64,000 nucleotides of DNA, taken from assembly GCA_016195405.1 (NCBI GenBank), contig JACPZP010000100.1, positions 62,001 through 126,000 of the forward strand, in the 5' to 3' direction. Shown in pieces: positions 3,001 to 49,168 of the stretch. The notes below the pieces were generated by a model. The model was not told the DNA's origin, did not search any database, and saw only the letters and a list, made by a program, of their open reading frames with translations. The stretch comes from Planctomycetota bacterium (GTDB lineage Bacteria; Planctomycetota; Planctomycetia; Gemmatales; Gemmataceae). How positions within the stretch are numbered: position 1 is the stretch's first letter; every line of letters begins with the position of its first letter. The position numbers and the translations under genes were made by a program.

Positions 3001-4301
3001 TTCGCCTCTTGTGCTTTTTTCTCCTCATAAGCCATCTTTTCCTGGTCGCTCATGAGGAGTTGTTTGCCAAGATCGGGAAGCTGCTTCATCGCATCTTCCG
3101 CTGTTGCAGCGATGATCTTGGCCGTTTGCACGACCAGCCCCGTGCGGACATCGACCAGCCGGGCATTGACCGAAACGCCCGCCAGACGCTGCACGCTTCC
3201 CAGCACTAGAAAGCGGATCTTGGCCAGCTTGCCGAACTCGCGCTGCTGGTTAGGGTCGTCGAGGGCGTTTTGCTCGAATTTCAGCTCGTCGAGAACTTTG
3301 GCGATCTGACCGCGCTCGACGAGATCGAAACGCGGCTTGAGCGTGGACAGAAGCTCCTCCGCGATCCCTTTGCCGGCTTCAGGAAAGCCGACGTCGCCGC
3401 GCACTTCGAAGTCCGCGACGCTGACGTTATCGCGGCGTTTTTGCAGCGCCAGGTTGTACTCATCGATGTCCTGGCGGATTTGCAGCGTGTCCCAGGCCTT
3501 GGCAGCTTCCTGGAGCGCGGCCAGCGCTTCTTCAAGCTGGGCGGGATCGCGGCGCAACTCAGCGGCTCGCTTTCGCAGAGAGTCGTACCTTTCGAGGTTA
3601 GTGCGAAGCTCGCCGACTTGATCTTTCAGGGCGCTATCGTCGCGGATGGTAAGCGCCTGTTCATAGGCGAGGACGGCGGCGCGCAGGTTTTTTTCCTCGA
3701 GAGCCGTCTTTGCCTCGTCGCGTAGACGGCGGAGGCGGGCGTCGTCGTCTTCCTTGGCTTGGACGTTCTGCAGCGCGTCGGCCTGCACGCGAAGCTTGAC
3801 GAGTTGGTCGGCTGCGTCGCCGCCGCCGAATTCCTTGAGAGCGGCCTGAGCGAGTTTTGCCGCCTCGGCGCCTTTGCCGTCTTCCAAAACGGCGCCGATT
3901 TCAGCAACCGTCTTCCGGGCGGCTGTTTGCTGCTCGATTCGGCCCTGGACCTTGGCGATCTCACTCTTGATGAAGTCGTTGTCTTGAAATGATTGGGCCG
4001 TTTCCAACGCGACCAAGGCGTCGGCTAGCTTCTGACCTGCTAAGAGGTTTAGGGCGTCGGCGAGGGCGGCTTCGTACCGATCTTGTTTTTCGTCCGGCGC
4101 GGCCGACAGCGCCACCAGTTCGGCGGTCACCTTGTTGGGCACACCTTTGGCGTCTTGGGTCTGACCAAGGTCTTGAGTCGGAGCGACGACGAGTTCGGGT
4201 CGATTTTTGACGTCGCCCTTGTTTTCGGCCTGCCGCGAGCAACCGGCGAAAATCACATAGGTCATTGCCAAGCAAAGAGAGAGAATCGAGAGACGCCGCA
4301 T
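24..4301 (-). CDS. Large TPR-repeat lipoprotein with two CsgG-like domains
   Basis: About 1425 residues. The start is the ATG at 4301, preceded by a GGAGGTGG ribosome site; it opens a lipoprotein signal (MRRLSILSLCLAMTYVIFAGC, lipobox FAGC). An upstream in-frame extension exists but is not signal-like. Two CsgG/FlgO-like alpha-beta domains are visible: about residues 290-425 (VSVADFEVRG..., 'VLGSVQRLAG') and about 575-700 (RVAVLNFVVAG..., 'VLGTIQQTAS'), separated by a proline-rich segment. The last half is coiled coil followed by roughly seven TPR-like units of the pattern 'G...L..k.f.eA...f..A....P'. A short PKTKDV repeat lies near the C-terminus. CsgG family members act in outer-membrane secretion; here the domains probably serve as an envelope scaffold. 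Molecular function is unknown. The 3' end is at 24. It is divergent from the DUF1549 gene. Confidence 0.85.
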   Translation of the reverse strand: MRRLSILSLCLAMTYVIFAGCSRQAENKGDVKNRPELVVAPTQDLGQTQDAKGVPNKVTAELVALSAAPDEKQDRYEAALADALNLLAGQKLADALVALETAQSFQDNDFIKSEIAKVQGRIEQQTAARKTVAEIGAVLEDGKGAEAAKLAQAALKEFGGGDAADQLVKLRVQADALQNVQAKEDDDARLRRLRDEAKTALEEKNLRAAVLAYEQALTIRDDSALKDQVGELRTNLERYDSLRKRAAELRRDPAQLEEALAALQEAAKAWDTLQIRQDIDEYNLALQKRRDNVSVADFEVRGDVGFPEAGKGIAEELLSTLKPRFDLVERGQIAKVLDELKFEQNALDDPNQQREFGKLAKIRFLVLGSVQRLAGVSVNARLVDVRTGLVVQTAKIIAATAEDAMKQLPDLGKQLLMSDQEKMAYEEKKAQEAKLPEPPADNAPLPPPPQLPAKEVPAPPPPMFQAPPPPVGGLRVDAFQNLPPPPPPGQVIVIPPPAPEVVFRVKHRLLHAALHLGDNLFRRGLFRDAHRQFEFALTLAPGNFDIQLRLDNVRPFLPPPPVFVVVEQPVLVLRPRVAVLNFVVAGDPFVVPPSLGPWTAYNLAPYFSPSFDVVDSSEVYWYMGQMGLTLRDLMENPAARQWLGRALGVRYFVLGTIQQTASFDVTTYLLDAEFGYLQGSGRVHVQNPFELKLRLGELAQVTVMNPSQRQLFLEVGDRFGGIVLRGRQALDRGDFDVAVAAFNDALVLRPGHIEVLAYLERARFLGRVAFLERQRRGLFVGVVIFDEGAARRRARELAEAAELARMRAAQEAAARAEVDRILLEDQRRRAQGVLLSQARIAVNTKNFSFAVNIFSGATAIAPPQENVLREFAVARVEADRLAQVRATEQVAARETVLRQQRELELANVQAQLQMERQRTAAALGEQKRLQEERDKAAYKAAFSEAQTQLAKSNYDAAIASLQLARRLQKSDAAEALLAHAVTEQAKTIAKGDAERQALEQKLAKERERRKLAEHEAKRNQDLYKATLDQANKALAQKEFDAAKTKFQEAGKVFQTDAVLTGLKQVESARTKALTDIDAARQKAVSDQEKNARLLRLVSDGQTALSARKFADAVDKLQQAKKIAPDNVEVITALTRAEQARDKALVEAVRKAPPGDKVAADPLKDSQAGKKAAQDAIAAEALKKEALKKEAEKQKLASFQKSLQTGQAALQGKKFEEAVKAFQEAASLFPTDQKALALLGEAQKSWERAKSDEARSQEYGRLIKSGSAALTTKKFADAQKAYGDALKLVPGDPEATRGLQEALRGLDAPKTKDVPKTKDVPKTDPKAEARENFQKEMNRAAALEKDKKYEAAFKAYQDALKYSPDDAKAKDKAKQMEYIFRVQEGQKHLDAKRYTEAVREFEAALALYPNTPSVTKLLQKAKQGKN
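336..382 (-). repeat. Short in-frame tandem repeat (PKTKDV units)
   Basis: Imperfect 18-base tandem units inside the large TPR lipoprotein gene encode KDVPKTKDVPKTKDVPKT. The unit separates two TPR-like blocks and probably acts as a charged linker whose copy number could vary. Confidence 0.6.
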
Positions 4302-4544
4302 GGTGCCACCTCCATGAGGAGAGATGCCCGGCGCCGCCGGGTTCTTCCTGTGAGATTTCGACATGAAAACTGGCTGCATCATAAGCAAGTGGGCAAAGTG
4401 GGACAAGCCGGCTTGAAGCGAACCCGCGGAAAGGAAACGCCAAGGGGCGACAAACTTGCGCACGGGCAGCAGAAAGGAGCCTGTCATCAATTGTGGCGGG
4501 GTTTTTGTCTCCCGGTCGCGAGTGATGTCGGATAAAATGAGCGC

Positions 4545-7298
<2,754 letters not shown>

Positions 7299-7369
7299 CA
7301 ACTCTGCCCTTGCCTGAACCCGTACAATGGGGCGATGAGTCAAGCGGCCCCGGCTGGAGGCGACGCGGT

Positions 7370-7398
7370 TTGCATCGCCACCGGGCTTGACCTATAGT
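7370..7398 (+). promoter_or_regulatory. Predicted sigma-70-type promoter of riboswitch-protease unit
   Basis: TTGCAT (7370-7375), a 17-base spacer, then TATAGT (7393-7398). The predicted transcription start near 7405 falls directly at the 5' edge of the riboswitch, which supports the assignment. Confidence 0.5.
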
Positions 7399-7404
7399 TG
7401 TGCA

Positions 7405-7517
7405 GACCGTGTCCTGCCGATTCCCGACAACGGCAAACCCACGGCAACGTGGGGACGCAAAGCCATGGGCCGGGCCGCTCACCCCAACGCGGCGTTCTGG
7501 TCGCCAGGTTACCGAAG
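7405..7517 (+). promoter_or_regulatory. Cyclic-di-GMP-I (GEMM-I) riboswitch
   Basis: The conserved GEMM-I core is present: GGCAAACC (7432-7439), a stem CCCACG-GCAA-CGTGGG capped by a GNRA tetraloop (7438-7453), then GGGACGCAAAGCC (7452-7464). A second stem follows (about 7465-7500), and the aptamer closes with GTCGCCAGGTTACCG (about 7500-7514). The base aligning with the ligand-contacting G20 of the Vc2 aptamer is a G, which favours c-di-GMP over the cGAMP variant. The ribosome site AAGGAA (7515-7520) immediately follows the last conserved bases and lies about ten bases before the protease ATG at 7530. Control of translation initiation is therefore the simplest model. Confidence 0.9.
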
Positions 7518-7529
7518 GAATTACACCGC

Positions 7530-9797
7530 ATGAGTCTCCCCATTTGGCCATGGGCCATCCATGGCACAAAGGTCCGCGCGCGCCGGCGTCCTGCCACGAT
7601 TTCACTCGACCTCGAATCACTGGAAGATCGACTAGTGCCGTCGACGACGCTGACCCACGACCAATGGCGTCAGGCGACTTTCCACGTCGATGACGTTTCG
7701 GTCGCCAACTTGCCTGTGACAGGCATCGGCCGCCGCGGCGCTTTGGGAATTCAGGCTCAGGCCGACAGCGCCGCTTCGCTCATTCATCTCGACCAGGTCT
7801 TCGCCGACTACGCTTATCGCGGCGACGGCTATAGCGTCGCCGTCATCGACACCGGCATTGACTACACGCATCCCGACCTTGGCGGCGGTTGGGGCAAGCG
7901 CGTCGTCGCCGGCTACGATTTCGTCAATCACGACAGCAATCCGATGGACGACAACGGCCACGGCACGCACGTCGCCGGCATCATCGGCAGCAGCAGCGCC
8001 ACCTATCCCGGCGTGGCGCCGCACGTGAACCTGATCGCACTCAAGGTGCTCGACGCTTCGGGTAGCGGCAACTTCGGCAACGTCGAAGACGCGCTTCAAT
8101 GGGTCGCCGTCCATCAGGCTCAGTATCACATCGCAGCCGTCAATTTGTCACTCGGCACCGGGGATTTCACGGTCAACCCTTACACGTTTCTCGACGGCGA
8201 TTTCGCCACCCTGAAGTCCGAAGGCGTCTTTATCGCCGTCGCTTCCGGCAACGACTATTACGCGAACAACGGCACGCCAGGCCTAGCCTACCCAGCCATC
8301 AGCAGTCAGGTGGTCTCGGTGGGCGCCGTCTGGGCGGGCAACTTCGGCGCCGTGAGCTGGGTTTCCGGCGCTCGCGACTATTCGACCGCAGCGGATCGGA
8401 TTGTCAGCTTCACGGAACGCGGCCCCGCGCTCGACATTTTGGCGCCGGGCGCGATGATCACCAGCACATACTTGCACGGCGGTTACACGACGATGGCCGG
8501 CACCTCGATGGCCAGCCCAGCCATCGCCGGCGCGGCCGCGATTCTGCACCAAGCCCTCGACGCCACGGGTCATCACATTCAGGCAAGCCAGGATTACATC
8601 CTGAACCTGATGCAGACAACCGGAAAGACCGTCAACGACGGCGACGATGAGAACGACAACGTCGTCAATTCGAGCCTCAACTTCAAACGGCTCGATCTCT
8701 TGGCCGCCCTCAATAAGGTCACGGTCACGAACGCCTCGCCGGTTTTGAGCCCGATTGCGAATCAAACTGCGACCGCGGCTAAGGCGCTGGTCATCACCCT
8801 GAACGCTACCGATCCCAACGGCGACAACATCACTTTCAGCGGACGGGTCATCGGCGGCGGCGGCTCGGCGGTGGCTTACAATCTCGATCAAAGTCTCGGC
8901 CTACGCTATGCCGGCTCGTACTTCACGAACCAATACGGCGCCAATGAAAAATGGATGGTCGGCGCGAGCAACTGGTATTGCATTCTGCCTAACGGTGAAT
9001 TCCGCCGCTGGGCCGGCAGCATGAGCGCGACGCTGCAATCGGCGGCGCTTTTGGCGACGCTTGACCAGTCCTTCTACGCTGACCCAAGCTTGTTGTGGAA
9101 TGCCCAACCGCCTGGAAATGCCCCGGCGACTCTAAGCTTTAGCGGCAACAAGCTGACGATATTTACGCCCGCCACCTACAAAGGCGCGTTTACGGTTGAA
9201 GTGACTGCCAGCGACGGTGCGCTGTCGGCCCAGCAGAGATTCACGGTAGCCGTCAGGCAAGCGAACGTGGCGCCGACTTTGAGTCCGATCGCGAATCAGA
9301 CGGTGGCTTCGGGAAAATCGCTGTCTCTGACCTTGAACGGCGACGACGTCAACGGAGATTCACTGGCCTACAGCGCTCGCGTTCTGGGCGGCACGACGCC
9401 GTCGCAGGCGTATCAACTCAAGCAACAGCTCGGGCTAACGTATCCCGGTTCGTACTTCACCAATTTCTATGGCCACGGCGAGAAATGGCTGAGAGGAACG
9501 AATAATCAGTGGTATTGCATTTTGCCTGACGGCGAGGTGCACCATTGGATGGGCAGCGCTGCGACCACGTTCGCGGCTTCCGGTCTGGTTGCATCCATGG
9601 GCGCCAGCTACTTTGCCGACCCGAGTCTGTTGTGGAACGCGGCAGCTCCGATCGCAACCTCGCTCACCATGAAAATCACGGGCAACACCCTAGCCCTCAC
9701 GCCGCCGGCAAACTACAAGGGCGCGTTTGATGTGGAAGTCACCGTGAGCGACGGTCAGCAAACGGGCACGCAGACCATTCACGTTACCGTAGTTTAA
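7530..9797 (+). CDS. Subtilisin-like S8 exoprotease with tandem C-terminal repeats
   Basis: 755 residues. The ATG at 7530 is chosen because it follows the riboswitch and AAGGAA; the upstream in-frame extension would be riboswitch RNA. The N-terminus lacks a classical signal peptide but carries the planctomycete export-associated motif LESLEDRLVPS. The S8 catalytic triad is Asp107 (VIDTGIDYTHPDL), His144 (NGHGTHVAG) and Ser326 (GTSMASP). Two cadherin/Ig-like C-terminal domains follow (about 400-580 and 585-755), each starting 'PxLSPIANQT'. Each is interrupted by a conserved insertion of about 75 residues with 'LGL.Y.GSYFTN.YG..EKW' and 'WYCILP(N/D)GE'. It is probably a secreted or surface endopeptidase under c-di-GMP control. 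The substrate is unknown. Confidence 0.9.
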   Translation: MSLPIWPWAIHGTKVRARRRPATISLDLESLEDRLVPSTTLTHDQWRQATFHVDDVSVANLPVTGIGRRGALGIQAQADSAASLIHLDQVFADYAYRGDGYSVAVIDTGIDYTHPDLGGGWGKRVVAGYDFVNHDSNPMDDNGHGTHVAGIIGSSSATYPGVAPHVNLIALKVLDASGSGNFGNVEDALQWVAVHQAQYHIAAVNLSLGTGDFTVNPYTFLDGDFATLKSEGVFIAVASGNDYYANNGTPGLAYPAISSQVVSVGAVWAGNFGAVSWVSGARDYSTAADRIVSFTERGPALDILAPGAMITSTYLHGGYTTMAGTSMASPAIAGAAAILHQALDATGHHIQASQDYILNLMQTTGKTVNDGDDENDNVVNSSLNFKRLDLLAALNKVTVTNASPVLSPIANQTATAAKALVITLNATDPNGDNITFSGRVIGGGGSAVAYNLDQSLGLRYAGSYFTNQYGANEKWMVGASNWYCILPNGEFRRWAGSMSATLQSAALLATLDQSFYADPSLLWNAQPPGNAPATLSFSGNKLTIFTPATYKGAFTVEVTASDGALSAQQRFTVAVRQANVAPTLSPIANQTVASGKSLSLTLNGDDVNGDSLAYSARVLGGTTPSQAYQLKQQLGLTYPGSYFTNFYGHGEKWLRGTNNQWYCILPDGEVHHWMGSAATTFAASGLVASMGASYFADPSLLWNAAAPIATSLTMKITGNTLALTPPANYKGAFDVEVTVSDGQQTGTQTIHVTVV

Positions 9798-9805
9798 TAG
9801 TCGGA

Positions 9806-10486
9806 TTAACCCGCTTTGCGGTACGATCGGCCCCAACCGGATTTGGAGCGCCGGCCAAGGAGAAACTCCCAGGCGTCCTGGCCTCGCGAATCATGATCGC
9901 GATCATATCTATCCAGCCGCCGGCGATTGACGAGGAATTGAAAAACCAAACCGACGAGAGCCATCAACGCGCAGATCCAGTTGAGCAGCGTGCCGCCCTG
10001 ATCGGTCCAGGCGACGGCGTCCATGGCGCCGTAGTGGGTGAGAAGCCCCAGGCCGGCATAGGTGATGAAAATGGTGCCGGCGACGCTGCTGAGGGCCATC
10101 ATCGAAAACCGAAACAGGAATAAGCCGATCAAGCCGCTGATGAGAAAGCAGATAAGCGGCTGGTCGAAGCTGGGGATGACAGCCTGGGCCGCGAGAAGGC
10201 CAGCGGTGCCGCCCGCGAGGAACGCCACCAGCCGGACCAGGGCGAGCGCCAACATGCCCGCGGTCAGCGCGAGGAGCACGGCGGCCACAAGCGGTTGCGC
10301 TTTGAACGCCGGGGCTTCATACAGGCCGTAAATCCCTGCCAGCACCGTGGTGATCAACACGATCCAGAAGCGATGACATGACCAGCCGAAGAGCCAAAGT
10401 GCCAAACCAATGACCAGGCCGGCAATGAGCAACGGCGGCGACAAGCCACAGGTATCCGCCAAAATATCTGGGGCAACCAGTTGCAT
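9806..10486 (-). CDS. Multi-pass membrane protein, DUF4203/TMEM198-like
   Basis: 226 residues with about six or seven hydrophobic helices between residues 18 and 185 (for example LLIAGLVIGLALWLFGW and FWIVLITTVLAGIYGLY), followed by a basic, Arg-rich cytoplasmic tail (NRRRLDRYDRDHD...). The small-residue-rich helices resemble the DUF4203/TMEM198 group, but no catalytic motif is visible. It converges with the riboswitch-controlled protease (8 bases apart) and is divergent from fbp. Function unknown. Confidence 0.7.
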   Translation of the reverse strand: MQLVAPDILADTCGLSPPLLIAGLVIGLALWLFGWSCHRFWIVLITTVLAGIYGLYEAPAFKAQPLVAAVLLALTAGMLALALVRLVAFLAGGTAGLLAAQAVIPSFDQPLICFLISGLIGLFLFRFSMMALSSVAGTIFITYAGLGLLTHYGAMDAVAWTDQGGTLLNWICALMALVGLVFQFLVNRRRLDRYDRDHDSRGQDAWEFLLGRRSKSGWGRSYRKAG

Positions 10487-10592
10487 GAGCCGCCTTCGTT
10501 GGCCTCTAATATGTAATCAAGGATGCACTCAAGGGGGGCAGACCGAGGAAGCTAACAAGGACACGAAACCCTGTCAAGACGAGGGCCTCACC

Positions 10593-11591
10593 ATGCCCAG
10601 TTCCATGATGACCGTCGAGCAGCATATCCTCGAAGAGCAACGGCGACACTTCCCGCACTCCAGCGGAGAATTCTCCTGGCTCCTTTCGGGAATCACCTAC
10701 GCCACCAAGATCATTGCCGACAAAGTGCGGCGCGCCGGCTTGGTGGACGTGCTCGGCAGCGCGGGCGTCGAGAATGTCCAGGGAGAAACGCAGCAAAAAC
10801 TCGATGTGCTGGCAAACCAGGCGCTTTTGACGAGCCTGGCGGGCAGGGGCAACGTCGCCATCATGGCGTCCGAGGAAGACGCCGAGCCCATTGTGGTCTC
10901 GCGCGATCGCCAACAAGGCCGCTATGTCGTCGTTTTCGATCCCCTGGACGGCTCGAGCAACATCGACGTCAACGTTTCCGTCGGCACCATCTTCTCCATC
11001 CTCCGCCGCGAACCCGACCCACAGCAGACGCGGCCGCCGCTGGACGACGTGCTGCAGCCGGGCTATCGGCAACTCGCCGCCGGTTACGTTGTTTACGGGT
11101 CGTCAACGATGTTTGTCTACACCTCCGGCAACGGCGTGGCCGGCTTTACGCTTGATCCTTCCGTCGGCGCCTTTGTGCTGAGCTTCGAGAGAATTTCCAT
11201 GCCGGAGAAGGGCAGCCTCTATTCCGTGAATGAAGCCAACGCCGACAGTTTCCCGGACGAATACCGCACCTACCTCGCGCGTCTCCGCGCCGGGTTGGAC
11301 GGCCGAGTCTATTCCTCGCGCTACATAGGCTCCTTGGTTGCCGACTTTCATCGCACGCTTCTCAAAGGCGGCATTTTCCTATACCCGCCGACCAAGGCGA
11401 ACCCCAAGGGCAAGCTACGGCTCATGTACGAGGCGAACCCGATTGCGTTTCTCGCCGAGCAAGCGGGCGGCATGGCCACCGACGGCACGCAGCGCATCCT
11501 CGACATCACGCCGACCGGATTGCATCAGCGCACGCCCTTCCTCGTCGGCGGCAGAGCGGAAATGGAATTGCTTATGGGGATGCTGAACTGA
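10593..11591 (+). CDS. fbp: Fructose-1,6-bisphosphatase class 1
   Basis: 332 residues, the usual class I length, starting at the ATG at 10593. It hydrolyses fructose 1,6-bisphosphate to fructose 6-phosphate and phosphate in gluconeogenesis. Diagnostic motifs are MASEEDAEP and FDPLDGSSNIDVNVSVGTIF (metal-binding loop) in the first half, and KGGIFLYPPTKANPKGKLRLMYEANPIAFL then AEQAGGMATDG in the sugar-phosphate-binding half. The reading frame is open further upstream (to 10410), but that part overlaps the divergent membrane gene and is not family-like. Cytoplasmic; no operon partner is evident. Confidence 0.95.
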   Translation: MPSSMMTVEQHILEEQRRHFPHSSGEFSWLLSGITYATKIIADKVRRAGLVDVLGSAGVENVQGETQQKLDVLANQALLTSLAGRGNVAIMASEEDAEPIVVSRDRQQGRYVVVFDPLDGSSNIDVNVSVGTIFSILRREPDPQQTRPPLDDVLQPGYRQLAAGYVVYGSSTMFVYTSGNGVAGFTLDPSVGAFVLSFERISMPEKGSLYSVNEANADSFPDEYRTYLARLRAGLDGRVYSSRYIGSLVADFHRTLLKGGIFLYPPTKANPKGKLRLMYEANPIAFLAEQAGGMATDGTQRILDITPTGLHQRTPFLVGGRAEMELLMGMLN

Positions 11592-11763
11592 CCCGCAAGC
11601 GGGGTAAACGGCGCAAGTAAGGTGCGTCCGCACTTCCGTCACAATCGTCACAACCCCTCTTTTTGTTCATTTCTCTCCATCTTTTGACCGAAGAATACTG
11701 AGACCATTGCCAGGTCTTGGTGCGTCCTGCATCCGGACCGCGCTCTCCCGACCGAGGAACGCC

Positions 11764-12573
11764 ATGAAATTGCAGGTCATGAACAAGCAGGTGATGTTCT
11801 GGGCCGTTGTGGGGACGATTTGCAGCTTCGGCAGCCTCCAAGCACAGGCCCCCGGCGACGAGAAAATCCCGCCGCCCACGGTTCAGGAAGCCGCGCCGCG
11901 CGCCTATGTCGAAATTCCGCAGACGGGTCTTTCCAATTGGATCACCTACCATCGCGAAAACTGCTGTTTCGGCAATGTCGGCGGCGACACGCCCATCGGC
12001 ACCGAGCTGTTCCTGCGCATCGGCCCGTCCGTGCCTATCGGAAGCAACTTTCTCAGACATATCCTCAACACCGGCTGGATGATCGAGGGCGGCGGCCGAA
12101 GCATGTTCTTCAACCCATCCATGGAGGCCGCCTGGTTCGTCGAATTCAGCATTTCCAACACGAACAACCACTCCGGACCGGAGGTGCAGATTTTCACTCC
12201 CAGGCTGGCCACGAACCCCGTGGTGGTCCAATCCTACAATCGCACGTTCGTGAATCTCGGCGCGGGTCGGGAATGGTATTTGTTTCCTGCCACGGATACC
12301 GGGCGCAACTGGCGCACGGGCCTTGACCTTGGAGTCCGCTACGGCTCCGCCAGCCTCGGGCTGTATAACACGCAGCACCTAACCGACGTCGTCGGCGGCT
12401 GGTACGCGTCCTGGCACACCGATCTCGAATTTCCGTTTTGCTGCTGCCACAACCCGTGCATCTTCCAAGCGGGATTCCGCGTCGAGTATGGCTATACTTG
12501 GAGCGATATTCTCGGCCATTCCACGGACCTGCAGGATTTGAACTTGCTGTTCAGCTTCGGCGTGCGCTACTAA
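11764..12573 (+). CDS. Predicted outer-membrane beta-barrel protein
   Basis: 269 residues from the ATG at 11764 (GAGGAA ribosome site just upstream). The signal peptide covers residues 1-26 (VMFWAVVGTICSFGSLQAQA). The mature part is rich in alternating aromatic and polar strands and ends in a barrel-like final strand (LLFSFGVRY, terminal aromatic). Unusual Cys clusters occur at ENCCFGNVGGD and FPFCCCHNPC. This is a common planctomycete envelope protein type without an assigned function. It converges with lpxB (12 bases between stop codons). Confidence 0.7.
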   Translation: MKLQVMNKQVMFWAVVGTICSFGSLQAQAPGDEKIPPPTVQEAAPRAYVEIPQTGLSNWITYHRENCCFGNVGGDTPIGTELFLRIGPSVPIGSNFLRHILNTGWMIEGGGRSMFFNPSMEAAWFVEFSISNTNNHSGPEVQIFTPRLATNPVVVQSYNRTFVNLGAGREWYLFPATDTGRNWRTGLDLGVRYGSASLGLYNTQHLTDVVGGWYASWHTDLEFPFCCCHNPCIFQAGFRVEYGYTWSDILGHSTDLQDLNLLFSFGVRY

Positions 12574-44412: not shown

Positions 44413-45006
44413 TTATCGCGTGCAAATTGTTTCCCAGATCGTGCCGCCGGCCTTGCGTGCCCAGAAGAACCAGGCGACACAAGCTGCAGTCACCAATAAC
44501 CCAAAACCCATAAGCGCCCACGCCGCCCCGGCGGGCATCGGCTGGACTCCCGGATTGCGAGCTTGGTCGGGCGGCGCTGCCAGCAGGATGCCGGTGCACA
44601 GCAAAGTCAATAGCCCGAATACGGCGCCGGCGAGCGTTAACAGCAGTATCATGCGATTGCTTCGCGGCGTCTGCTGACAATGCCAATTCGGGCCGAGCAA
44701 ACGCACGAACGTCTGATAGAATGCGTCGCGATCGGCTTGGCTCTTGAAAGTGAAATCCTCCTTGGCTTTGCCGAGAAAGTCGCGCGCGACCACAAAGATA
44801 GTCGGCGACCCTTTCTTCGATTCGACGCGGACCAAGCTATTGAAGTTGCACGACGATCCTGAGAACCCGACTGCCTGCGCCATCGCAACGCCGGACTCCA
44901 GGTCCGCCCGCAATTTTCCGATTTCGCCGTCATTGGCCCAATAGCTGACAGCGGGCGTCAAAGCCACAACACCGGCCAGGGTAGGCCAGATGTGCACTGC
45001 TCCCAT
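44413..45006 (-). CDS. Hypothetical two-helix membrane protein
   Basis: 197 residues from the ATG at 45006 (GGAG five bases upstream). The first helix is weak (HIWPTLAGVVALTPAVSYW). A soluble stretch 30-115 contains 'SLVRVESKKGSPTIFVVARDFLGKAKEDFTFKSQADRDAFYQTFVRLLG'. Two strong membrane helices follow (about 120-143 and 160-185) with a short cytoplasmic end. No family recognised. It is transcribed divergently from the AAA+ gene. Confidence 0.6.
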   Translation of the reverse strand: MGAVHIWPTLAGVVALTPAVSYWANDGEIGKLRADLESGVAMAQAVGFSGSSCNFNSLVRVESKKGSPTIFVVARDFLGKAKEDFTFKSQADRDAFYQTFVRLLGPNWHCQQTPRSNRMILLLTLAGAVFGLLTLLCTGILLAAPPDQARNPGVQPMPAGAAWALMGFGLLVTAACVAWFFWARKAGGTIWETICTR

Positions 45007-45173
45007 AAAGTCTCCAGTCGAAGGTTTGGCCGAGAACTTCCACCAGGCTCGACGCGAAGTTTCTTGCTCATCGACTCGGCATGCACACCAGTAGGCCACA
45101 TGCCGCGAGCGCTGTCAATACTCGCCGCGCCTCATGCTGGCATCCGCCTCCCTCCCAAGTTATCATTGCCCTT

Positions 45174-46643
45174 GTGAACGAGGAACTTCAGAAACTGCTG
45201 GAACAAGCCCGCATCGTGCAGAACCAGCCGGACTCATTCCACCGGCTCGCGGACATGCTGCGGCTCCAGAGCAAAGATGATACGGGCATCCTCGTGGAGT
45301 TCGCTCAGTCGGCCGATGACTTGCAGCGGCGGGCGGCGATTTCCGCGGCGGCCGGACGCACCGAGCCTGAGGTGATCGCCGCCATGGCCGCGCTCGCCAA
45401 CGATCCGCTTCCCTTCGTCCGACAGAGTCTCGCTTTTGCCCTCACCGATTATTCCACTTGGCCGATGAATGAGGCGGTCGAAGCGCTCCTAAGCGACAGC
45501 GACGCCAATGTCCGCCAAGCGGCGATTTGGGCTGCGAAGCCGCGCGCGGCCGTGACCGCAAGCCTGGTCAAGCGGCTTGAGGTCGAAGAAAGCAATTGGA
45601 TTCGCACCGACATCGCCAACGCGCTGGCCGATTGCGACCATCGTCTCGCTTTGCCCGCCCTCTTCAACCGACTCGGCAAGGACGCCGATCCGGGAGTCCA
45701 GCAGGCTTCTGCCGGCGCCATTGAGAGACAGCTCGGCAATCTCCGCGCCTATCCCGCCGATCTCGACCGTCCGCCAACGAAAACTCTCAATGAAATCCGC
45801 CGCCGCGTCAGTGCCTATACATACGGGAGCTACCCGATCTTGCAGGCCTTCTTGAGCGAACAGCTCGCCGCCCATGTCGATGTGGAGCAGCTCGCCGGCT
45901 TCGGCACAGTCTTGACAGCCGAGGCCGAGAAGGGCCAATTGCCGCGCGGTTACTGTCTCGACGAAGCCGTCGAATCCGTGCTGACGATGCTGGACGGCGG
46001 CCCGCCCCGCGCGGTTGTCCTGGTGGGCGAGTCCGGCGCCGGCAAGACGGCGCTGGTGCATGAAATTACGCATCGCCTGCTCCGCGATCCAAGGCGACCC
46101 GGCTACGTTTTACGCATGGCGCCTCAGGACTTTCTTGCGGGCACCAAGTACATCGGTGAATGGGAAACCAAAGTCCGAAACGTCATCAACGCCGTCAAGC
46201 CGCCGCGCCGCGTCATCCTCTACATTCCCGCGATCGAGGAACTCGCCTGGATGGGAACGTGGGAAAAGAGCGAGGCCAGCGTCGCCACCGCGCTCGCCCC
46301 CTATATTGAGCGCGGCGACCTGACGATTCTCGGCGAAAGCACCGTCGAAGGCTTTCGCAAAGGTCTGGGCGCCAATCGCTCCTTGCGGCGTCTCTTCCAC
46401 ACCGTGGAACTTCAGCCTCCCGACGCCGACGAGGTCCGCGCAATCATTCGTTCCGTAGTGGACGAGGCCGATGCCGAAATCTCCGACTCCGTTCTCGACC
46501 GCCTGAGCGAACTCGCCGACTACTTCGTCTCCGGAATTGTGCAGCCGACACGAAAGCGCTCGATCGCCATGCAGTCCGGCATTTCTTCGAGAGCCGCGTC
46601 ATGGGTCAGCCCGAAGCGGTCGATGCCATGGTCGATCTCGTGA
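45174..46643 (+). CDS. HEAT-repeat/ClpB-like AAA+ protein, N-terminal part of a frameshifted gene
   Basis: Start GTG at 45174 (VNEELQKLLEQARIVQ); the upstream frame is not protein-like. Residues 1-210 are HEAT/Armadillo-like repeats (for example 'DPLPFVRQSLAFALTDY', 'DANVRQAAIWAAKP'). A ClpB-type first AAA+ module follows: Walker A GESGAGKTAL at 285-294, 'DFLAGTKYIGEWETKVRNVINAV', and a Walker B that reads ILYIPAIEEL instead of ILFIDEIH, so the hydrolytic Asp-Glu is lost. The region after SGIVQP runs out of register: the next frame gives TKALDRHAVRHFFESRVMGQPEAVDAM, the expected linker into the second AAA+ module. Adding one base after 46547 would join this to the following entry as one ~1135-residue protein. 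Confidence 0.85.
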   Translation: MNEELQKLLEQARIVQNQPDSFHRLADMLRLQSKDDTGILVEFAQSADDLQRRAAISAAAGRTEPEVIAAMAALANDPLPFVRQSLAFALTDYSTWPMNEAVEALLSDSDANVRQAAIWAAKPRAAVTASLVKRLEVEESNWIRTDIANALADCDHRLALPALFNRLGKDADPGVQQASAGAIERQLGNLRAYPADLDRPPTKTLNEIRRRVSAYTYGSYPILQAFLSEQLAAHVDVEQLAGFGTVLTAEAEKGQLPRGYCLDEAVESVLTMLDGGPPRAVVLVGESGAGKTALVHEITHRLLRDPRRPGYVLRMAPQDFLAGTKYIGEWETKVRNVINAVKPPRRVILYIPAIEELAWMGTWEKSEASVATALAPYIERGDLTILGESTVEGFRKGLGANRSLRRLFHTVELQPPDADEVRAIIRSVVDEADAEISDSVLDRLSELADYFVSGIVQPTRKRSIAMQSGISSRAASWVSPKRSMPWSIS

Positions 46644-48583
46644 CGCTGGTCAAGGCGGGCTTGTCCGACCCCAACAAGCCGTTCGGCGTGTTTCTTTTCG
46701 TCGGACCCACCGGCGTCGGCAAGACGGAGTTGGCCCGCGCCATGGCCGAGAATTTATTCGGCGATCCGGCCCGACTCGTCCGACTCGACATGAGCGAATT
46801 CGCAACCTATGAGGCCTTCGAACGGCTGATCGGCGGCGGTATTCACTCCACCGAGCCGGGGCTTCTGACTTCCACGGTGCGCGAACGGCCCTTTGCCGTC
46901 CTCTTGTTCGACGAGATCGAGAAAGCCCATCCGAACATCTACAATCTGTGCTTGCAGATTTTCGACGCCGGCCGCTTGACCGACACGCAAGGCCGCACCG
47001 CTGACTTCCGCCGCACCATCGTCATTATGACCTCGAACGTGGGGTCCAGCATTGCCGGCGAATCCCCCGTGGGATTCGGACGCAAGCCGACTCCCACCCC
47101 CGACCGCGACATGACCATGCGCGAGCTGGGGCGCTGGTTCCGCCCGGAGTTTCTCAATCGCCTCGACCGGATCGTCAACTTTCGCCCTCTGGCCGTCGAG
47201 ACCGCGGAAAAGATCGCTCAGCGCGAGGTGGCCAGGGTCTTGGAGCGAGGCGGCATCACGCGTCGGAACTTGGCCATCGAAGTCGATCCCGCAGTGCTGC
47301 CGGTGTTGCTCCGGGAGGGCTACTCGCCAGCGTTCGGGGCCAGACCGCTCAAGCGCACCGTCGAGCGCATGGTGCTCTTGCCGGTCGCGCGGGCGATCGC
47401 GGAGGGGAATCTGCCTCCGGGCTCGCTCCTGCGGCTGGTGGCCAGGCAGAATCGCGTCGATATCGAAGTCGAACCGCCCGAAGCCCCCGAAGGTCCGGCC
47501 CCGACCGCCGCACGTGCGCTGCCGGTCGTCGAACGTGCTGCGAAGCTTCTGGAGCGCCTCCGCGAGTTGTCTATTCAGGCCGAGCCGCTGGCGGAGCGAA
47601 AGTCGGAACTGCTGAGTCAGTCGTCGCAGCCTGACTTCTGGAACGACGCCGCCCAAACGCGCCGCATCTACGACGACATTTATCGGCTCGACGGCATTCT
47701 CGCCAACCTGGTAACGCTGGAAAAACAAGCCCAGGCCGAGGTCGAACGCGCCCAAAAGCAACGCGGTTCCGGTCGAGAGCTGACGCGCATCGAGGAACAT
47801 CTCGAAGGTCTCGAAAGCCAGGCCGAGCAACTGGCGTTCTTGGTGAGTTGCCGCGACGCGCGCGCCCTCGGCGATGCCCTCGTCACCCTGCGATTGGCGA
47901 CACGGCAGGTGGGGACTCGTCAGGGCAGGGGCTTGGACGGCGTGCCTCTTTTGGCCCGAATGTACGTGAACTTTGCCGCCCGGCGTGGCTTGGAGGTGCA
48001 GGTCGTGGACGATCGCCACGGCGGCGAGCCGAAAGAAGACACGATCACGCTGCACGTTTTTGGGCCCGGCGCCTTCGCACTCTTAGGAGGTGAAGCCGGC
48101 ATTCACCAGGTGAGTCGAGGCAAAGCCCATCGCAGCGAGCGCAAGAATAGCGTCGAGCGCAAAACCAGCGCCGAGCGCGAGATGATCCGCGTCGAGGTCT
48201 TGCCCGCCCCCAGTGGAACGGTCGCTTTTTCGCCGGACGAGCTGCAAGCCGAAGTGAAGCCGGCCAAGCTTCGCCAAGGCCGGCTCCTGACGCAAATCAA
48301 CCATGAAATCCGCCTCTTTCACGCGCCGACCATGACCTCGGTCCACGGCTGGTGCGATGGCAGCAAGACCGAAGCCATCGATCGGCTCAAGACGCTGCTA
48401 CGCGCACGCCTCGACGCTCAGAAGACTCCTGCTGTGGGCAAGCCTCCCGTGGTCCGCCGTTACCGGCTCGGCCCCAGCGCCATGGTCCGCGACCACCGCA
48501 CCGGCCGCGGCACGGCACGGCTCGACAGCGTGCTGGAGGGCCATCTCGATCCGTTTCTATTGCCGCCGAGCGGGAATGGCTAA
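46601..48583 (+). CDS. ClpB-like second AAA+ module fused to an RF2-like domain, C-terminal part of a frameshifted gene
   Basis: 660 residues counted from the ATG at 46601, but the true frame enters upstream (HFFESRVMGQPE). AAA+ module 2 is intact: Walker A GPTGVGKTEL, Walker B LLFDEIEKAH, sensor 'IVIMTSNVG', Arg finger FRPEFLNRLD, and a ClpB small domain to about 285. From about 310 the protein is release-factor-2-like: PCRF region 'LLSQSSQPDFWNDAAQTRRIYDDI', 'DTITLHVFGPGAFALLGGEAGIHQVSR', and the RF2 closing segment 'RRYRLGPSAMVRDHRTGRGTARLDSVLEGHLDPF'. The SPF loop is replaced (HQVSRGKAHRSE) and GGQ is missing (AKLRQGRLLTQINHEIRLFH). A canonical release function is therefore excluded; a ribosome-binding unfoldase is conceivable (inference). 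Confidence 0.85.
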   Translation: MGQPEAVDAMVDLVTLVKAGLSDPNKPFGVFLFVGPTGVGKTELARAMAENLFGDPARLVRLDMSEFATYEAFERLIGGGIHSTEPGLLTSTVRERPFAVLLFDEIEKAHPNIYNLCLQIFDAGRLTDTQGRTADFRRTIVIMTSNVGSSIAGESPVGFGRKPTPTPDRDMTMRELGRWFRPEFLNRLDRIVNFRPLAVETAEKIAQREVARVLERGGITRRNLAIEVDPAVLPVLLREGYSPAFGARPLKRTVERMVLLPVARAIAEGNLPPGSLLRLVARQNRVDIEVEPPEAPEGPAPTAARALPVVERAAKLLERLRELSIQAEPLAERKSELLSQSSQPDFWNDAAQTRRIYDDIYRLDGILANLVTLEKQAQAEVERAQKQRGSGRELTRIEEHLEGLESQAEQLAFLVSCRDARALGDALVTLRLATRQVGTRQGRGLDGVPLLARMYVNFAARRGLEVQVVDDRHGGEPKEDTITLHVFGPGAFALLGGEAGIHQVSRGKAHRSERKNSVERKTSAEREMIRVEVLPAPSGTVAFSPDELQAEVKPAKLRQGRLLTQINHEIRLFHAPTMTSVHGWCDGSKTEAIDRLKTLLRARLDAQKTPAVGKPPVVRRYRLGPSAMVRDHRTGRGTARLDSVLEGHLDPFLLPPSGNG

Positions 48584-48642: not shown

Positions 48643-48819
48643 ATGTCCATCAGTGTCGAAGCTATTTACGAAAACGGCGTATTGAAGCCGACCCAGGCGT
48701 TGCCGCTCATGGAGCACGAACACGTTCGGGTCACGGTGCACTCCACTGTCGAAGCACGTTTGGAGGCAGCTACGGAAGCTGAGAGAATTGTCCGGCGTTC
48801 GTATGGCCTGCTCGGCTGA
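48643..48819 (+). CDS. AF2212-like (DUF104) antitoxin
   Basis: 58 residues from the ATG at 48643 with AAAGGAG upstream. The sequence MSISVEAIYENGVLKPTQALPLMEHEHVRVTVHS is the classic DUF104/AF2212-like antitoxin start; the remainder is a short helical tail. This antitoxin family pairs with VapC-type PIN toxins, and such a gene (degraded) follows 64 bases downstream on the same strand. A long open frame from 48352 in the same register overlaps the AAA+ gene and is not used. Confidence 0.85.
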   Translation: MSISVEAIYENGVLKPTQALPLMEHEHVRVTVHSTVEARLEAATEAERIVRRSYGLLG

Positions 48820-48883
48820 CCGGCGACGCAGAAACCCTTCGGCGCCTCGCGGAGGATGCCGAATTTGATCCACAGGAGAGCCC

Positions 48884-49168
48884 ATGAACTTCGCCGACCT
48901 TGCGAAGGGCGATTCGGTTTTTGTCGATGCAAACAGCTTGGTCTATCACTTTGCTCCCGATCCCATCTGGGGCGCCGCGTGTACCGAACTCTTGGTCCGT
49001 ATCAAATCGCAAGAGTTGGCCGGGGGCGCTGTAAGCCACCAGCACGGGCTGCTGACAAACGACGCGTTACTTGTTGCCGTCATGAACGCCAACTCGATTA
49101 CCAACCTCGCTAGCAGTCACACCGACTTCGACCGCGTGCCCAGCATCAACCGCTACGCGCCGGCATGA
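48884..49168 (+). pseudogene. VapC-like PIN toxin with internal deletion
   Basis: 94 residues (AGGAGAG before the ATG). The N-terminus MNFADLAKGDSVFVDANSLVYHFAPDP contains the first PIN acidic residue (VDAN). The C-terminus HGLLTNDALLVAVMNANSITNLASSHTDFDRVPSINRY carries the third and fourth acidic positions (TNDALLVA, DFDRV). The middle of the domain (about 45-60 residues with the second acidic residue, normally a conserved Glu) is absent: 'QELAGGAVSHQ' runs straight into 'HGLLTND'. Compared with a usual length near 135, the frame is kept but the fold is incomplete, so the toxin is probably inactive. Confidence 0.75.

Follow-up and report, generated by a model that had tools for sequence, protein, structure and literature searches.

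A segment of the 64,000-nucleotide stretch of planctomycete DNA analysed here (the window) raises the question of whether a Clp-type double AAA+ ATPase joined to a relative of release factor RF2 is a genuine protein and, if it is, what a release factor fold does on such a motor. A preliminary description of the locus had proposed a ClpB-like unfoldase whose RF2-like part docks to the ribosome without releasing the chain. The segment examined spans 45081-48583 on the (+) strand, where two open frames, 45081-46643 and 46601-48583, overlap in different phase and carry the fusion. Every motif quoted in the preliminary description was located in its place. The features are as follows, D1 and D2 being the first and second AAA+ domains.

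45174-45860 (end approximate), (+): N-terminal HEAT-repeat region in place of the Clp N-domain (Pfam HEAT_2 5.2e-12, HEAT 1.1e-07), also found in orthologues
45954-46505, (+): D1 (Pfam AAA_16/AAA; AAA_16 9e-08)
46026-46055, (+): D1 Walker A, GESGAGKTAL, kept
46140-46166, (+): D1 aromatic pore loop, GTKYIGEWE, kept
46212-46244, (+): D1 Walker B with DE replaced, VILYIPAIEEL
About 46546-46567: lesion in the D1-D2 linker, a frame change with loss of ca. 127 bases (alignment with orthologues)
46589-47425, (+): D2 with small domain (Pfam AAA_2 3.1e-43, ClpB_D2-small 4.9e-14)
46703, (+): D2 Walker A, GPTGVGKTEL
46823-46870, (+): D2 pore loop region, RLIGGGIHSTEPGLLT, without GYVG
46898, (+): D2 Walker B, VLLFDEIEKAH
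47063-47083, (+): SPVGFGR, the ClpA/C-type [VIL]GF loop in D2
47138, (+): D2 arginine finger region
47336, (+): D2 sensor-2, GAR
47522-48583, (+): RF2-like tail (domains 1, 2/4 and 3) without SPF and GGQ (TIGR00020, PCRF, PDB, hhalign, AlphaFold, Foldseek)
47630, (+): PDFWND of the tail
Within 48068-48121, (+): GEAGIHQ of the tail
In 48272-48292, (+): QGR at the GGQ position of the tail
48449, (+): VVRRY of the tail
To 48556, (+): C-terminal closing segment of the tail, ending in DHRTGRGTARLDSVLEGHLDPF

Alignment with the orthologues demonstrated that ca. 42 codons of the D1-D2 linker are gone from the window copy, the gap starting after FVSGIVQP and ending just before TKALDRHAVRHFF, and that the reading frame shifts near 46546-46556. 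A programmed frameshift was rejected on account of these missing codons and because every orthologue stays in one frame; the sequence fits either an assembly error or a real loss. Downstream, at 48646-49168, an AF2212-like (DUF104) antitoxin gene precedes a short PIN-like ORF (94 aa) from which an internal part seems to be missing, possibly a second deletion within ca. 2.5 kb of the lesion. A divergent ORF at 44413-45099 on the (-) strand matches DUF6338 weakly and is not a conserved neighbour at other fusions.

The fused protein that had been proposed is thus interrupted in the window, and uninterrupted elsewhere. Single-frame orthologues of 1179-1262 aa with the same domain order were present in five further Gemmataceae genomes (G003, G018, G029, G035 and G099); in G081, of the same family, the copy is cut. 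Among 392 sampled Planctomycetota genomes, 21 further carriers belonging to at least 10 families had frames of 961-1273 aa, and one orthologue lies in record VGYC01000136.1, a Planctomycetota MAG. Related but more distant proteins (frames of 1018-1199 aa) were found in 11 of the 301 Chloroflexota genomes searched; in the AAA+ tree, which carries a long-branch warning, some of them cluster with the window class and others do not. In four close pairs, dN/dS of the tail versus the rest was 0.112 versus 0.114, 0.304 versus 0.288, 0.060 versus 0.026 and 0.033 versus 0.028, and purifying selection on the RF2-like tail is about as strong as on the AAA+ part. Since the orthologues are uninterrupted fusions, the fusion is not an artefact, and the alternative in which the RF2-like part is a separate gene joined here by assembly error was not seen. 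These observations confirm that the Clp-type AAA+/RF2-like fusion is a genuine, conserved protein.

The C-terminal region was compared with release factors by sequence, profile and predicted structure. The full-length prfB model TIGR00020 matched the window tail at 3.6e-26 over profile positions 14-348 of 353, with a score of 92 bits that lies below the curated cut-off of 370, and the NCBIfam RF1 models followed behind it at 3.1e-14; Pfam PCRF matched at 1.4e-12. A PDB search with a profile of five tails retrieved RF2 chains at 1.6e-31, and profile-profile alignment (hhalign) of 27 tails with 23 canonical RF2 sequences gave a probability of 100 and an E-value of 2.7e-45. The AlphaFold model of the tail had a mean pLDDT of 84.9 and a pTM of 0.82, and its best PDB match in Foldseek was free E. 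coli RF2 (1gqe, E 1e-19); most rows of the underlying alignment were canonical RF2s, so that an RF2-like answer was favoured. The C-terminal ca. 350 aa are therefore homologous to RF2 at the level of sequence, profile and modelled fold, and the complete RF2-like part with its closing segment, as described from the letters of the window, is borne out.

Canonical RF2 was represented in the position-by-position comparison by GGQ-bearing frames only, and positions are numbered after the reference C_L019. Seven RF2-invariant positions (E178, G180, H182, L274, R307, Y309 and G335) were kept in all 27 tails, and others in most of them: G168 and G234 in 26, M134 in 25, W32 in 24 and F31 in 22. At the decoding positions the canonical residue was found in 0 (G118, W127 and S199), 1 (G120 and R183), 2 (G121 and T198) or 3 (S188 and P189) of the 27; at the peptidyl-transferase positions in 0 (Q235, Q263 and N266), 1 (G233 and N238) or 2 (R261); and at the switch-loop positions in 3 (G303) or 0 (Q305). 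The motifs lost in nearly all tails are thus GxGGTE, W, R, SP and RxTS of decoding, RSQxxN of the peptidyl-transferase side and GxQ of the switch. In the GGQ motif itself, the first G was retained in 1/27, the second in 26/27 and the Q in none, and the replacement of SPF and GGQ reported for the window copy holds across the family. The decoding, catalytic and switch-loop roles of these positions we take to be established from RF2 structures. On this reading of the alignment, the RF2-invariant positions split cleanly, the fold residues being kept and the functional residues lost; the comparison shows an RF2 fold fixed as a C-terminal tail, stripped of decoding residues and, apparently, of release chemistry, under strong selection.

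Besides the fusion, two canonical RF genes were present in 20 of the 23 fusion genomes; therefore, the fusion does not replace RF1 or RF2. Individual counts were one canonical gene each in G018, G029 and G035 and two in G003, and the assembly of the window itself (G000, 90% complete) yielded neither RF1 nor RF2 in canonical form. In G035, a second short stretch of 36 residues near 4133-4240 of L136 (C433), lying in a 91-codon frame, shares 53% identity with the end of the RF2-like tail and is possibly a remnant copy.

The motor was characterised by counting motifs in 25 fusions and, from the same genomes, 11 canonical ClpA/B/C proteins. In D1, Walker A and the aromatic pore loop (25/25) were kept and the DE of Walker B was missing from every fusion (0/25); in D2, Walker A was intact, Walker B DE was present in 25/25 and the FRPEF..R segment was found. 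GYVG is the D2 pore loop that grips substrate for translocation. It was seen in 0/25 fusions and 0/6 Chloroflexota relatives versus 11/11 canonical Clp proteins, in all of which both D1 and D2 had intact Walker B and pore-loop motifs. The Walker A-Walker A spacing of the fusions (261-311 residues) resembles that of ClpA (289) rather than ClpB (402-407), so the fusions have no M-domain. No Clp_N match appeared among the domain matches listed for the window copy and the orthologues, HEAT repeats standing at the N-terminus instead. In the AAA+ tree, canonical Clp proteins (support 100) and fusions (99) formed separate clades, as did T1, T2 and T3 (100 each), the paralogues described below. These motifs suggest that D1 cannot hydrolyse ATP through its Walker B and that D2 is probably active; the AAA+ part thus differs from an ordinary ClpB unfoldase. 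The degenerate Walker B and the HEAT repeats had been recognised correctly in the preliminary description; its intact second AAA+ domain holds for the Walker motifs and fails for the pore loop, and its label 'ClpB-like' is right as to a Clp-type double AAA+ protein and imprecise in that the M-domain is absent and the loop is of the ClpA/ClpC type. Nor is the unfolding activity of ClpB modules simply transferable to a protein whose D1 Walker B is dead and whose D2 has lost GYVG.

Paralogous Clp-like double AAA+ genes, T2, T1 and T3, lie consecutively in many Planctomycetota (for example at L202 of genome G194, 3225-12197, and at L237-L251). All three share the dead D1 Walker B and the missing D2 GYVG loop with the fusions. 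The T1 and T2 tails matched the fusion tail with hhalign probabilities of 96.9 and 96.8, and the T2 tail matched canonical RF2 directly (96.6, E 6.1e-10); the stretch of the GGQ domain is missing from both, and T3 has no tail. RF2-tailed Clp-like proteins of Chloroflexota were located at L252 (7977-11552), L253 (9161-12757) and L257-L261; by reading of its sequence the L252 protein also lacks the GGQ domain, and the L260/L261 version has sequence at the place of domain 3, yet no GGQ. The absence of the GGQ domain from T1, T2 and the L252 protein suggests that the machine uses the decoding-domain core of the fold rather than the GGQ arm.

Based on these results, we propose an ATP-driven Clp-type remodelling ring in which a dead RF2 fold serves for binding or as a scaffold, without catalysis, a reading to which we give an even chance. 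The fusion protein would form a hexameric double ring, in which D1 would bind ATP without hydrolysing it and serve as a static ring with a structural or regulatory role, D2 would hydrolyse ATP and drive movement, and the HEAT repeats and the RF2-fold tail would bind or position the target. Since D2 is without GYVG while D1 keeps its aromatic loops, the action would most likely be remodelling of a specific partner rather than general processive unfolding; an unfoldase that threads its substrate in the standard way is disfavoured by the missing D2 GYVG. The tail would be a binding or scaffold module and not an A-site release factor, because decoding, peptidyl-transferase and switch-loop residues are all lost, which makes A-site docking in the manner of RF2 unlikely; the tail might contact the ribosome through other surfaces.

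The fusion may instead be a divergent ClpA/ClpC that docks to ClpP, with the HEAT repeats and the tail as receptors for substrates or adaptors. The [VIL]GF-type loop is the ClpP-binding loop of ClpA, ClpC and ClpX, and a [VIFL]G[FL] tripeptide was found by eye after the D2 TSN in all 25 fusions despite variable flanks, and ClpB from these genomes has no [VIL]GF-type loop, so that ClpP docking is possible. ClpP genes were present in 11/11 genomes tested, ClpC is the best solved relative (PDB) of the AAA+ part, and the ClpA-like D1-D2 spacing without M-domain also fits. However, such a particle would have to work without the GYVG translocation loop and with D1 Walker B dead, and the loop could be conserved for structural reasons. 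Moreover, the 40-kDa tail lies at the C-terminal end of D2, on the ClpP-docking face, where it could hinder ClpP binding. We regard a ClpP-dependent protease particle as unlikely.

In the proposal of the preliminary description, a ribosome- or nascent-chain-associated unfoldase, the tail would dock at a (stalled) A site without release and the AAA+ ring would extract or unfold the chain. The complete RF2 fold of the window class (domains 1, 2/4 and 3), the strong purifying selection and the FW motif of RF2 domain 1 (kept in 22-24 of the 27 tails) are in its favour, and Dom34 is a dead release-factor relative that still acts on ribosomes (PMC6514570). Against it, GGTE, W, SP, TS, the switch GxQ and the peptidyl-transferase residues are gone in nearly all 27 tails, the GGQ domain is deleted in T1 and T2, the D2 pore loop is absent and ribosome-linked neighbours were found at neither the fusion nor the operon loci; docking at the A site, as originally put forward, is not upheld, and the whole reading appears quite improbable. 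A broader version, in which the inactivated RF2 directs a Clp-type ATPase, either alone or together with ClpP, to ribosomes or to complexes of termination in ribosome-linked quality control through contacts other than those of RF2, we also hold to be rather improbable. It is very unlikely that the tail binds termination partners off the ribosome (e.g. RF3, PrmC or a ribosomal protein) that the ATPase regulates: the domain 1 and domain 2/4 core is kept, but the Q of GGQ, which is the PrmC substrate, is lost in 27/27, and neighbours at the fusion and operon loci give no evidence for it. A chance fusion, an assembly chimera or a decaying pseudogene, to which the broken window copy and the cut G081 copy might point, is hardly credible against the intact frames of over 25 further genomes of Planctomycetota, the Chloroflexota relatives and dN/dS values well under 1, and is refuted for the family, so that it concerns only the state of the window copy itself.

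Beyond the paralogues, no conserved partner gene that would explain the function was found at the 26 fusion loci and 15 operon loci, neighbour calls being rough because greedy ORF calling takes antisense frames in GC-rich genomes. PADLOC gave no match to a whole defence protein; the AAA+ stretches alone matched DolB, PDC-M37B and others.

A search of the full-text literature, with subscription papers and preprints outside its reach, retrieved no description of a Clp-release factor fusion, in agreement with the earlier statement that no characterised protein of this architecture is known. A survey of release factor evolution gives the bacterial kinds as RF1, RF2, ArfB and RFH, contains no word starting with Clp and describes no AAA+ fusion of a bacterial release factor (PMC6514570). 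An RF2-like domain appended to an HSP100/Clp protein is thus apparently unprecedented, although each of the two parts comes from a known superfamily. In two bacterial phyla, an HSP100-type motor appears to have taken up a core translation factor as a component without catalytic function, and both partners have changed: decoding and release residues are gone from the release factor, and the motor is short of one ATPase and of its substrate-gripping loop. The graded series from active RF2 through a dead full-length tail to a tail with the GGQ domain deleted clearly exemplifies how the fold of a translation factor is put to new use. The motor also presents an AAA+ design with ATP hydrolysis in one ring and the pore loop in the other, which can be tested biochemically.

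Among known systems, the fusion is closest to ClpA and ClpC, with which it shares two AAA+ domains, complete D2 ATPase motifs, the absence of a ClpB-size M-domain and the [VIL]GF loop after the D2 sensor-1 TSN, ClpC being the top PDB match; unlike them, it has HEAT repeats for the N-domain, has lost the D1 Walker B and the D2 GYVG, bears an RF2-like tail and forms a separate clade. ClpB and Hsp104 likewise have two AAA+ domains, and the D2 of the fusion scores well with the ClpB model, but the fusion has no M-domain, possesses the GF loop, is without GYVG and has a dead D1 Walker B. The tail shares full-length homology, domain order and fold residues with prfB (RF2) and differs from it in lacking GGQ, SPF, GGTE and the switch-loop residues and in being fused to an AAA+ motor. 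Dom34, the baeRF-1 families and MRPS35 are catalytically dead release-factor relatives in which the fold has likewise lost its catalytic glutamine and taken another role, although they mostly belong to another superfamily (aeRF-1) or, in one case, are a mitochondrial ribosomal protein (PMC6514570).
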